Shown: piece after piece, positions 7,981 to 64,000 of the stretch | Layout of the letters: each line of letters begins with the position of its first letter | Position numbering within the stretch: position 1 is the stretch's first letter | Notes under the pieces: model-generated | The model's database searches: none | What the model was told of the DNA's origin: nothing | Seen by the model: the letters and a program-made list of their open reading frames with translations, nothing else | Position numbers and translations under genes: made by a program | Assembly: GCA_003278095.1 (NCBI GenBank) | Contig: QCHB01000001.1 | Span: 1 to 64,000, forward strand | Length of the DNA: 64,000 nt | Reading direction: 5' to 3' | Origin: SAR116 cluster bacterium AG-390-L20 | GTDB lineage: Bacteria > Pseudomonadota > Alphaproteobacteria > Puniceispirillales > Marisalimonadaceae

Positions 7981-8832
7981 TTATGAAATTTTTTCCTGGG
8001 ACCTTGTTACTATAAAAACACCAACACACGAAAGGGATAAACCAATTAGATCGTAATAAGAAAATTGTTCGTTTAGTATTATAAATGCCATTAAGGCTGA
8101 AACAGGAGGAACTAAAAAAAACAAGGCAGATGTTTGATTAGCTTTATTGTGTTTTAGCAACCACATCAGAATCAAAAAAGCTCCAAGTGAAACCGCAAAT
8201 ATTTGCCATGACATAGCTAAAATAAACTTATTTGAAAAGTTTATGAAGTAATCTTCAAAACAAAGTGCAAGAAAAAGGTGAAAGATTGAGGCACTTGATG
8301 CTTGTAAAAAATTATTACCTGAAAGTGGCAAATCAGATCCTATTTTCTTTTGCCATATTATGCCAAGAGATGAAGCAATTAAACCAATCAACCCTGCAAA
8401 AAATACAAAAATAGTTAGACCTTCTATTATGTCAGAGGTAATTATAATTAATGCTCCAAAAAGCCCAAAAAATATTCCCATCCACTGAAACTTAGATAAA
8501 GTCTCATTCAAAAAAATTTTCGCAAGAATAGATGTTAAAATTGGTTGTAAAGAAACTATTAGAGCTATTAGGTTAGCCGACATTCCTTTTGAAAGGGCAT
8601 AAAAAACACCACCTAAATAAAATCCATGGAATAATAAACCACTTATAGACGCGTCCTTAAAGGCTTCTAAGGAAATTTTTTTATTTTTTGAAAAAAAAAT
8701 AAAAAATAAGAAAAAAAAGAACGCAACAATACCAAACCTAAATGAAAGAGACATAAAAGGGCTTGAATTGTCAACTATAATTTTGCTAGTGATAAATGCT
8801 GAAGACCAAAGAAAAACAAAAATTAGTGGTAT
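7981..8832 (-). CDS. EamA-family (DMT) transporter with probable ATA start
   Basis: This inner-membrane permease of the drug/metabolite transporter superfamily has two EamA repeats and about ten hydrophobic segments; the substrate is unknown. From the first ATG (8752-8754) it would be 257 residues and would lack the first helix. The frame stays open upstream and encodes the family's N-terminal motif (LWSSAFITSK) before meeting a stop at 8869-8871, but there is no ATG, GTG or TTG in that stretch. An ATA at 8830-8832 gives a typical 283-residue protein beginning MPLIFVFLWSS. An ATT at 8842-8844, preceded by GAG six bases away, is the alternative (287 residues). The gene lies upstream of the riboswitch-dadA unit on the same strand and might export a related amino acid, which is inference. 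Confidence 0.8.
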   Translation of the reverse strand: MPLIFVFLWSSAFITSKIIVDNSSPFMSLSFRFGIVAFFFFLFFIFFSKNKKISLEAFKDASISGLLFHGFYLGGVFYALSKGMSANLIALIVSLQPILTSILAKIFLNETLSKFQWMGIFFGLFGALIIITSDIIEGLTIFVFFAGLIGLIASSLGIIWQKKIGSDLPLSGNNFLQASSASIFHLFLALCFEDYFINFSNKFILAMSWQIFAVSLGAFLILMWLLKHNKANQTSALFFLVPPVSALMAFIILNEQFSYYDLIGLSLSCVGVFIVTRSQEKIS

Positions 8833-8890
8833 AATATTAAAAATTTTATTCTCTTTGACGTAAAAAGGTTATATGAAATTATCTTGCTTC

Positions 8891-9274
8891 TTATATTGGA
8901 CCATTTAGTTTAAGCCATCTATTATAGCCACCAATTAGGTTGGATGTATTTAAAAGATTAATACTATTAGCTACGAGAGTAGTAAGAGTTGAAAGCAAAT
9001 CTGTAGCGCAATAAAATGTAAAGTTAAAACTTTCATTAAGAAACTTTTTTTGATACTGACTTTTAGTATCTATACAAAATTCTAAAATGACTCTTGGTAC
9101 GTGTTTAGACCCTAAAATTCGACCATATTTTGTGATTTCTCTAATATCTCTTAAGTCTACGGATGTATTCATTTTATTAGAGTGTATTTTAATAGCATCT
9201 TCTGTTTTAACACAATTAATGTTGATTTTTGCATTTTCGACAAGTTTTAAAACAGAATTTTTACTATTTATCAT
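8891..9274 (-). CDS. Rhodanese-like domain protein
   Basis: This is a single-domain protein of 127 residues with the rhodanese fold pattern: an N-terminal strand-helix, VDLRDIREITKYG near 39-51, the SKHVPRVILEF segment near 57-67 that matches the H-(I/V)-P motif of the family, and the active-site cysteine C89 in FYCATDLLS. Rhodaneses move sulfane sulfur between a donor and a thiol acceptor. The loop after the cysteine lacks the usual glycine and arginine that cradle the persulfide, so activity may be altered. It lies between the EamA transporter and an FAD oxidoreductase on the same strand. The specific role is unknown. Confidence 0.75.
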   Translation of the reverse strand: MINSKNSVLKLVENAKININCVKTEDAIKIHSNKMNTSVDLRDIREITKYGRILGSKHVPRVILEFCIDTKSQYQKKFLNESFNFTFYCATDLLSTLTTLVANSINLLNTSNLIGGYNRWLKLNGPI

Positions 9275-9309
9275 TTTTTATTTTTCCAGATTACACAAAA
9301 TTAATTAAA

Positions 9310-10254
9310 TCAATGAAGCCTTTCTAAAATTAATTCTGCAGCTTTTTCTCCAGAAGAAAAGGCCGACTCAATATTCGCTCCCTCCATAAAATCTCCAGCA
9401 ATTACAATAGGAAATTTTGAATCAATTTGAGGTCCTGAACAAACTTTTGTTACTTTAGCATATTTCCAAATATGTAAACTATGAAAATTAATTTTTATAT
9501 TTGGTTCTAGTTGATAAATAGCTTTCTCTATTTCTTGTAAAATTTCATCTTTAAGTAATATTTTATCTTTATTTATATTTTTATTTGAAAAATCTCCTTT
9601 AGTGTGCGCTGTCCAAAAACGCAAATTACTTCCAGCAGCCATCCAACTTAAAATACCTTGTTGATTGTAATAATCAAAAAAATATGGAATGTTTTTAGGT
9701 TTCCTATCAAAGAAAAACATTAGTGAAATGCATGCATCGTAAGAAGAAGTCTTAAGAGTTTTTTTTAACATTGGGAATTTCTTCATTAAGTCTAAATTTT
9801 GTGGTGCTGGAAGAGTTGATATTACAGCATCGTACGTTTCCCAAATATTGCTTCTGTCGTCAAGGACACTTATCTTTTCATTATGAGGTTTTAAATTGGT
9901 AACTTTGACATTTTGAGTAATACTTAAATTTTGGGATAAATTTATTAGAAAAGCTCTCATAGATTTAAAACCCCTGTATCTTGGAGGAGAAAAACTTCCA
10001 TATTCTTTGATATATCCTTTATTTATTCCATTTTGGATAACATTTTTGAAATTGTCTGATTTAGCAGTAAAAAATTGTGCACCATGAAAAAAGTAATTTG
10101 AATTATCTTTACTTTCAATGTTTCTAGTTCCTACTCTTCCTCCTATGAAATTACCCTTATCAATTATAGTTGACTCTAAACCAAAAGATTTTAACTTTAA
10201 TGATGAAGAAATTCCTGCTATTCCTGATCCAATAATTAGGATTTTTTTTGACAT
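9310..10254 (-). CDS. NAD/FAD-dependent oxidoreductase, renalase/amine-oxidase type
   Basis: The 314-residue flavoprotein begins MSKKILIIGSGIAG, with the dinucleotide-binding glycines at 9, 11 and 14, followed by FIGGRVGT, a GGR motif typical of the amine oxidase and renalase family. The C-terminal stretch IVIAGDFMEGANIESAFSSG contacts FAD in this family. The substrate is unknown. I chose the ATG at 10252-10254 because the Rossmann strand starts there and GGA sits just upstream. An in-frame ATG at 10380 would add 42 unrelated residues and run into the divergent gene. The 46-base gap to that gene must hold two divergent promoters. Confidence 0.8.
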   Translation of the reverse strand: MSKKILIIGSGIAGISSSLKLKSFGLESTIIDKGNFIGGRVGTRNIESKDNSNYFFHGAQFFTAKSDNFKNVIQNGINKGYIKEYGSFSPPRYRGFKSMRAFLINLSQNLSITQNVKVTNLKPHNEKISVLDDRSNIWETYDAVISTLPAPQNLDLMKKFPMLKKTLKTSSYDACISLMFFFDRKPKNIPYFFDYYNQQGILSWMAAGSNLRFWTAHTKGDFSNKNINKDKILLKDEILQEIEKAIYQLEPNIKINFHSLHIWKYAKVTKVCSGPQIDSKFPIVIAGDFMEGANIESAFSSGEKAAELILERLH

Positions 10255-10300
10255 TTGGATCCTTTCATTAAAATAGTATCTTATAGGATAAACACATAAA

Positions 10301-62611: not shown

Positions 62612-62632
62612 TTAATACAAGTATTGTATTAA
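62612..62632 (+). repeat. Perfect 9-bp inverted repeat upstream of the DUF4167 gene
   Basis: TTAATACAA and TTGTATTAA flank a three-base centre (GTA), 31 bases before the start of the next gene. The symmetry could be a repressor site or a hairpin in the leader. The rest of the 175-base gap (62489-62663) holds AT-rich sequence and a GAGCTC but no gene that I can support. Confidence 0.4.
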
Positions 62633-62663
62633 TTAAAATAAAAGCTTTAATTTTAGGAAAATT

Positions 62664-63155
62664 ATGAGACAGCAAAATAGTGGGCGTCGTCGCCAAAACC
62701 GTGGATCTAATCGTCGAAACTTTGGCAACGGGAATTATAGTGGAAACTTAAATAAAAATACTGTCATTGATAGCTCAGGACCTGATGGTCGCCAAAGAGG
62801 CTCAGTTTCTCAATTAAGTGAGAAATATACTAGTCTTGCATCGGATGCTGCATCGTCGGATGATCGAATATTGGCAGAATCTTTCCTACAATTTGCTGAT
62901 CATTATTATAGGCTCCAAAAAGAAATAGAAATAAATAACGAAGCTAAAGAAACAAGAATTAAAAATGAACCACAGTCAAGTGAAGAGGCTGTTTCTGAAG
63001 CTGAAACAGACAAAAATGATAAAAGGCCACCAAGGCGAAAAAGAGGTTTTCAAATTAGAGAAAACGAAATGAAAGAAGCTGAAAATAATATTGAAAACAA
63101 AGATCTTAACCCAGGAAAAAAAGAAAATACAGATAATAATAACCTATTAGCTTAA
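62664..63155 (+). CDS. DUF4167 domain protein
   Basis: The 163-residue protein starts with an arginine-, asparagine- and glycine-rich tail (MRQQNSGRRRQNRGSNRR) followed by the DUF4167 block: VIDSSGPDGRQRGSVSQLSEKY and DDRILAESFLQFADHYYRL. The C-terminal half is charged and low in complexity. This family is found in alphaproteobacteria next to prfA-prmC and clpB. The basic RGG-like N-terminus suggests nucleic acid binding, which is inference. AGGAAA precedes the ATG. Confidence 0.85.
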   Translation: MRQQNSGRRRQNRGSNRRNFGNGNYSGNLNKNTVIDSSGPDGRQRGSVSQLSEKYTSLASDAASSDDRILAESFLQFADHYYRLQKEIEINNEAKETRIKNEPQSSEEAVSEAETDKNDKRPPRRKRGFQIRENEMKEAENNIENKDLNPGKKENTDNNNLLA

Positions 63156-63263
63156 CTGTAATGAAGTAAATATTTTTGTTCCAAAAATATTAATTATATT
63201 GAATTTTGCATTGAAAAATTTTTATAAATCACCATTTATAATAAATAAATCTGGATCAGTATA

Positions 63264-64000
63264 ATAGATAACTTAATAAATCAACTTTCAGATAGATCGA
63301 AAATTATATTTAGTTCGGCTTATAAACTAGCTGATAAAAATAATAAAGTTTTCACTTCTAATCATATATTATTTATTTTATTAGATGATTTAGAAAAATA
63401 TATTAAAGATTTTTTAATTAAATTAAATCCAAACATTAATTTTATTAAAAAACGAATAAGTCTACTTTTAAAAAAACATAATTCTTCAAGTCAATATGAA
63501 AAAGCTGACGAGAGTGTAATAAAACTTTTAAAAACTTCTAAGAAGTTAATGAAAGAATTTGGTGATAAAGTTGTTACTCAAGAAATATTATTATTATCTT
63601 TTACAGCGATGAACGATGAAATTCAAGACATTTTATCAAACCATAATATTACTTTTAGTAAACTACAAAATGAAATTAAAAAATTTAGGAAAGGCAAAAA
63701 AGCTATGAATGACAATGCTGAATCAGGTTTTGATGCGTTAAATAGATTTGCAACTAACTTAACAGATAATGCAAAAAAAGGATCATTAGATCCTGTTATA
63801 GGAAGAGATGAAGAAATAAGAAGACTCATCCAAGTCTTATCTAGAAGAACAAAAAATAATCCGGTTTTAATTGGTGAGCCAGGTGTTGGGAAGACTGCGG
63901 TTGTAGAGGGTTTGGCAATTAGAATAGGGAATGATGATGTTCCTGAAAAACTGAAAGGTAAAGAAATATTTTCTTTGGATTTAGTAAGCATTTTAGCAGG
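63264..64000 (+). CDS. clpB: Disaggregase ClpB (5' part, runs off the window), probable ATA start
   Basis: ClpB with DnaK pulls apart protein aggregates. The visible 245 or so residues comprise the N-terminal substrate domain (from [17 protein letters not shown]) and the start of AAA-1, with the linker [27 protein letters not shown] block and Walker A GEPGVGKT at 204-211, matching the numbering of E. coli ClpB. No ATG, GTG or TTG lies between the in-frame TAA at 63246-63248 and the N-domain; the first ATG comes near residue 96. ATA at 63264 (GGA eight bases upstream) gives the standard N-terminus; an ATA lies directly before it at 63261. The 3' end is beyond base 64000. Confidence 0.88.

Follow-up and report, generated by a model that had tools for sequence, protein, structure and literature searches.

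The window analysed here, the first 64,000 bases of contig C1 of a source genome (G000) assembled to 2.23 Mb in 33 contigs, comes from an AT-rich genus of SAR116, a group within the Puniceispirillales, and carries three genes that appear to begin without a canonical start codon: an EamA-family transporter, a nitrilase and clpB (Table 1). A sequence-only reading of this DNA had described three frames in which no ATG, GTG or TTG occurs as far back as the in-frame stop, each with an ATA where the start was expected, and the frames are indeed as described. On the minus strand, the EamA frame is open to 8868, with the ATA at 8832-8830 and the first canonical codon, an ATG, at 8754; the nitrilase frame, also minus, is open to 48935, with the ATA at 48908-48906 and a TTG at 48797. 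The clpB frame, on the plus strand, has its upstream stop at 63246-63248 and its first canonical codon, an ATG, at 63549. Compared with relatives of the same genus at no more than 92% identity, homology continues upstream of the first canonical codon for 30-34 codons in the EamA gene, 35-37 in the nitrilase gene and 95-99 in clpB. Our survey covered 640 kb of the source genome and parts of six relatives; among the 320 source-genome genes with an ortholog at that identity limit, these three alone had homology reaching at least 30 codons past the first canonical codon in more than one genome.

Table 1. Start codons, ribosome-binding sites and related features of the three genes in the window.
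Feature	Position	Strand	Remarks
EamA-family transporter gene	7981..8844	-	PF00892, E 1.1e-27
ATT, likeliest EamA start codon	8842..8844	-	ATT 27, ATA 2, ATC 1 in 30 relatives
ATA of the sequence-only reading, probably EamA codon 5	8830..8832	-	ATA 29, ATC 1 in 30 relatives
AAAGAG, Shine-Dalgarno-like, 6 nt before EamA ATT	8851..8856	-	motif reading and anti-Shine-Dalgarno pairing
Nitrilase-family gene	48069..48908	-	PF00795, E 5e-53
ATA start codon, nitrilase (CN_hydrolase)	48906..48908	-	common to 6/6 near relatives
GGAG, Shine-Dalgarno of nitrilase	48917..48920	-	anti-Shine-Dalgarno pairing -6.4 kcal/mol in 6/6
Sigma-32-like heat-shock promoter candidate, clpB	63210..63237	+	ATTGAAA 63210-63216, ACCATTT 63231-63237
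Shine-Dalgarno-like GGA, 8 nt before clpB ATA	63253..63255	+	anti-Shine-Dalgarno pairing at this spacing in 25/25 relatives
ATA start codon, full-length clpB	63264..63266	+	ATA 23, ATT 2 in 25 same-genus genomes
clpB, first 245 codons	63264..63998	+	gene continues to C1:65834, past the window end
AGGAAAGG, upstream of internal clpB ATG	63687..63694	+	also encodes a conserved RKG stretch
In-frame internal ATG, codon 148, candidate start of short ClpB	63705..63707	+	ATG in 25/25 same-genus genomes

The most notable case is clpB, the gene for the disaggregase ClpB, a protein-rescue machine. We collected 27 loci of the same genus (L062-L088), leaving out genomes whose only matches were clpA-like or partial; 25 of them include the 5' end, the partial loci L087 and L088 were dropped, and genome G004 (L091) was read separately. 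The start column is ATT in L069 and L082 and ATA in all the others. In 24 of the 25, the interval from this column back to the upstream stop is free of canonical codons. The other two columns of the alignment that are isoleucine throughout are mixed in their codons (ATT 11, ATA 9 and ATC 5 in one; ATT 18, ATA 6 and ATC 1 in the other). Pairing with the anti-Shine-Dalgarno (anti-SD) sequence, computed from -15 to -5 relative to the start codon, is -2.2 to -4.5 kcal/mol in every relative, and when the interval is shifted 15 or 30 nt upstream, values of -3 or below are seen in one and none of the 25, respectively. For comparison, values of -3 or below occur at 52% of 234 ATG genes and at 15% of random positions in the source genome.

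A downstream canonical codon could instead be the real start, with the frame upstream of it untranslated, and the conserved ATG at clpB codon 148 offers an obvious candidate. We consider this very improbable. The first 92 codons have a ratio of nonsynonymous to synonymous substitution (dN/dS) of 0.15-0.38 in ten pairs, and the stretch behind the AUA is thus, by its pattern of substitution, evolving as protein under purifying selection. Homology extends to the AUA itself, the translation from that codon aligning to ClpB chains from residue 7-8 onwards. The position of the first canonical codon of any kind varies among the relatives between 15 and 147 codons into the gene.

In 24/25 loci a candidate sigma-32-like promoter pair lies upstream of clpB, its end 24-34 nt from the start codon; TTGAAA is present in 22/25. 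The scan, which keeps the best-scoring of many placements, gave a mean score of 10.5, compared with 8.4 for mononucleotide shuffles. At this distance from the start, the leader would probably be short. Outside the genus the start codon of clpB is different. In families f2 and f4 an ATG lies near the aligned N terminus in 18/18 readable loci, and in two f3 genomes (G044 and G038) clpB starts with TTG behind AAGG or a similar motif, all of these being read by eye; four other-family loci (L267, L280, L287 and L288) were unusable for this purpose. An AUA, AUU or AUC (AUH) start of clpB therefore characterises the whole sampled genus, whereas the other SAR116 families have ATG or TTG where the start is readable.

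The same gene has a second potential start. Codon 148 is one of only three invariant methionine columns among 426 fully aligned columns, and its ATG is present in the partial loci L087 and L088 as well. Aligned with the E. coli-type ClpB chain, Ala147 matches Val149 and Met148 the next residue, which places an in-frame start codon at the junction of the N domain and the first nucleotide-binding domain (NBD1). In the outgroup alignment the same column is canonical in 0/23 rows (one of which, L287, resembles another Clp protein), and in L270 a GTG occurs two codons ahead of the column; by this comparison the codon-148 AUG is specific to this genus among the families sampled. The motif AGGAAAGG ahead of it may be a by-product, since the same bases encode a conserved RKG stretch. 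In G004 (contig C2), a frame change of one base immediately ahead of the internal ATG splits clpB into two frames, the N-domain frame beginning near AAA ATA GAT and ending in a stop that overlaps the internal ATG; this frame change may be an assembly error.

For the EamA transporter, the proposal that the ATA is the start codon is probably wrong. That ATA has no Shine-Dalgarno pairing at the proper spacing, the values being positive in 30/30 relatives (0.4 to 3.6), whereas the pairing before an ATT four codons upstream has a median of -2.7. The identity of the codons does not by itself settle the matter, because other isoleucine columns of this gene are nearly uniform too (ATT 29 in one example); as the alignment had misplaced rows, the EamA codons were read by motif. 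On balance, the position of the ribosome-binding site moderately favours a start at the AUU. The N-terminal stretch has a dN/dS of 0.09-0.38 in six usable pairs of more than nine codons (the pair L041/L040, with nine usable codons, was left out), which again argues against a start further downstream. One further homolog, at G028:C30:5336-6094, has seven TAG and five TAA codons in frame and is likely a pseudogene or the product of a frame change.

For the nitrilase gene the ATA proposed earlier is correct, though its use is restricted to six near relatives (G000, G016, G010, G001, G033 and G034), all of which have GGAG, a spacing of 7-8 nt and ATA. The ATA overlaps the stop of an upstream glutaredoxin-like open reading frame by two bases, and in 5/6 the first base of this stop is the second of the ATA; in G034, the long frame upstream of the nitrilase stops five bases in. 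The relatives' ATG corresponds not to this ATA but to the codon at 48899-48897, which is ATA in G000 and G001, ATT in G033 and TTT in G034. The sequence-only reading had advised counting ATA against ATG at the homologous codons of related genomes. Such a count finds ATG in 0/25 clpB loci and in 0/30 EamA loci at either candidate codon, but an ATG nearby in all 24 nitrilase loci outside the near clade.

Such conservation also bears on the simplest explanation, that ordinary ATG starts were destroyed by consensus or sequencing errors. Single-cell and metagenome assemblies do carry errors, and the frame change in G004 clpB could be one. The same non-canonical codon is nevertheless present in 25 separate genomes for clpB and 30 for EamA, and the nitrilase ATA in six; as relatives keep the same codons, the starts of these three genes are not assembly errors, and we find this explanation scarcely credible. 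Among the 24 named matches of the nitrilase search, 20 are titled SAR116 cluster, at 65-98% identity, and are mostly AG- isolates, which we take to be single-cell genomes.

The same kind of start is found elsewhere in these genomes. The infC gene, which encodes initiation factor 3 (IF3) and is the classic example of such a start, has ATA behind GGAG in 23/23 loci of the genus (including L299, G000:C5:5625-5834); one locus, L292, lies at a contig end and has no leader. In other families a script read ATA in 4/7 infC loci, and the remaining three (L290 and L318, for which the script found no match, and L317, for which its match was spurious) have ATA when the printed codons are read by eye. A BPD-type ABC permease (L259:6373-7347; G000:C2:186373-187347) begins with ATA in G000 and G026 and with ATT in G023 and in G041, which is from another family; a 60%-identical copy in G012 has ATG (these start codons were aligned by eye). 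A gene of the SAM_MT (methyltransferase) family (L166:8624-9205, G014:C1) has ATT in G014 and in 7/9 further genomes, and ATG in the other two and in G000 and G001.

Might such codons simply have arisen by mutation at genes whose output matters little, and then been inherited? Neutral drift of this sort would suit the nitrilase and methyltransferase-family cases, which are limited to subclades and have a changed upstream context. It suits clpB and infC less well. A single transition turns ATA into ATG, yet ATG is found in 0/25 clpB and 0/23 infC loci, and the two clpB genes that did change moved to ATT. As a general account we regard drift as unlikely.

The sequence-only reading had further suggested that this lineage tolerates AUA starts more than usual. 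Of 337 single-copy clusters drawn from seven genomes, 331 yielded a start column, and the 1364 codons in these columns comprise 1293 ATG (95%), 20 GTG, 17 TTG, 7 ATA and 2 ATT, some of the ATA rows having an ATG close by. With the permease included, AUA or AUU starts account for 4/320 genes of the source genome, against 6/2265 fixed in Listeria monocytogenes (PMC13068326; p = 0.026); this comparison combines different methods and includes a window picked by the earlier reading. The three strongest cases in 640 kb all lie within its 64 kb, and AUH starts are sparser elsewhere: beyond the first 66 kb, 1/258 genes has one (p = 0.53 against Listeria). Tolerance of AUA across the lineage above the usual level is thus weakly supported.

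A relaxed initiation apparatus, to which AUA and AUU would be near-ordinary starts of no regulatory meaning, would be one way to account for an excess. The initiator transfer RNA (tRNA; L137, G000:C1:72453-72526) has A29-U41 in its anticodon stem, where G29-C41 has been described as highly conserved (PMC10486304). Exact matches to the A29-U41 version occur in 26/61 genomes from four families and to the G29-C41 version in 0/61, and these figures, like the excess over Listeria, speak for such a mechanism; the tally is incomplete, as 35/61 genomes fit neither exact pattern. A29 is also found in families with an ATG or TTG start of clpB, and the A29-U41 tRNA is therefore not specific to genomes with an AUA clpB. 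The dominance of ATG in the start columns, the rate outside the window region and an IF3 that retains the E. coli-type RFRGR stretch also count against relaxed initiation, which we judge distinctly improbable. In Mycoplasma, IF3 and the initiator tRNA are reported to have co-evolved; with the IF3 stretch unchanged, we rejected a similar explanation here. Nor is a reading of AUA as methionine supported: the most frequent substitutes at internal methionine columns are ATA (76), TTA (71) and ATT (67), as in ordinary exchange among methionine, isoleucine and leucine. Among the 30 of 36 tRNA loci that were read, there were three CAT anticodons and no TAT, and the anticodon of the initiator is CAT; together with the seven ATA among 1364 start codons, this led us to discard a genetic code or initiator tRNA that makes AUA an ordinary start. 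A second exact match to the initiator tRNA, at C1:81282, is a partial tRNA match only.

The observation itself is real: these are conserved non-canonical starts of a known kind, with one of the three coordinates corrected. We think it probable that they are genuine, clade-conserved AUH starts of the infC type that act as a lasting brake on translation and that, in clpB, the brake falls on the full-length protein while an AUG serves a short form. The suggestion of low-expression or regulated starts made in the sequence-only reading is accordingly the best reading of the conserved AUA codons of clpB and nitrilase. The ordinary initiator tRNA would read AUH codons poorly, the Shine-Dalgarno sequence would position them at the ribosome, and IF3 would be expected to disfavour them, with the result that translation would be held back permanently. 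In clpB this would restrain the full-length start, a weak one, and the genus-specific AUG at codon 148, a normal one, would yield a form without the N domain. Short ClpB would then be made in this genus and would be its dominant form; the ratio of short to long ClpB is predicted to exceed that of enterics by a wide margin, and the amount of full-length protein to track IF3 and ribosome supply. The comparisons themselves establish where the starts lie, how far they are conserved, the Shine-Dalgarno spacing, the constraint on the N domain as coding sequence and the restriction of the internal AUG to this genus; weak initiation, dependence on IF3, use of the internal AUG and any benefit are what we infer.

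Several observations weigh against this explanation. In L069, an ATG in frame with clpB lies 11 codons upstream of the ATT. In the EamA gene, the pairing before the ATT is only -0.7 in 13/30 relatives, and in 7/30 the interval from the stop to the ATT contains a canonical codon, which in four of them is a TTG 8-9 codons upstream. A TTG also lies ten codons upstream of the infC ATA, before the GGAG, in 4/23 loci, and in the outgroup locus L289 a GTG lies two codons ahead of the infC start. Lastly, a strong Shine-Dalgarno sequence precedes codon 148 of clpB in outgroups that have no ATG there, and so provides no evidence of selection for a start.

Among known systems, the closest are the IF3-attenuated AUU, AUA and AUC starts of infC and pcnB, which are likewise near-cognate codons behind a Shine-Dalgarno sequence and conserved, and to which the infC start of this genus belongs; here, in contrast, the genes are clpB, the EamA transporter and nitrilase, for which attenuation and a response to IF3 are predictions. 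In Staphylococcus aureus, infC, ccpN and citZ start with AUA and cvfC1 with AUU, measured at about 10-30% of AUG (PMC13009471). These starts, too, are conserved within a lineage; the genes differ, and the Shine-Dalgarno sequences of SAR116 clpB and EamA are moderate rather than extended. Listeria monocytogenes has infC on ATT and rnhC on ATC, and resembles the present case in that a few genes are fixed on non-canonical starts while others vary by clade; that variation is within one species rather than a genus, and clpB is not mentioned there (PMC13068326). A 2017 reconstruction counted one switch from AUG to AUU in 61,358 ancestral AUG starts (PMC5622118).

For the internal start, the parallel is the short ClpB (ClpB-S) of Salmonella and E. 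coli, which begins at the GUG of Val149 and in Salmonella gives a band ninefold weaker than the long form (PMC11005335). The candidate short form described here would likewise begin in frame where the N domain ends, its first codon next to that of the residue aligned with Val149, but the codon strengths are reversed, with AUA or AUU for the long form and AUG for the short. The arrangement of long and short starts in clpB is in this respect a testable new twist on a known kind of start. No report of an AUU or AUA start of clpB was found in the literature on clpB with AUU or AUA and on SAR116 with start codons, subscription journals being mostly outside reach. If our reading of clpB is correct, start-codon strength would be an evolvable dial on the ratio of the two ClpB forms, and the SAR116 families that retain ATG or TTG starts would provide a natural comparison. 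A stronger version, in which full-length ClpB is under infC-like control by IF3, the codon-148 AUG makes the N-domain-less form the main product, and clpB, infC, the EamA transporter and the permease constitute a small IF3-sensing regulon, is a tentative proposal that we think unlikely.

AUA and AUU starts are usually not called by gene finders, and such genes are therefore probably annotated with truncated N termini in this abundant marine lineage. Most of the other genes with homology upstream of the first canonical codon were judged by eye, with one set of 37 clusters covered in part, to be ordinary ATG genes flanked by conserved sequence, or else short shadow frames. One further AUH start concerns a Rossmann-type gene, presumably FAD-like, at about G012:C1 398061-399575, which has ATT in G012 against ATG in G000; in G012, its first canonical codon lies 51 codons into the frame.

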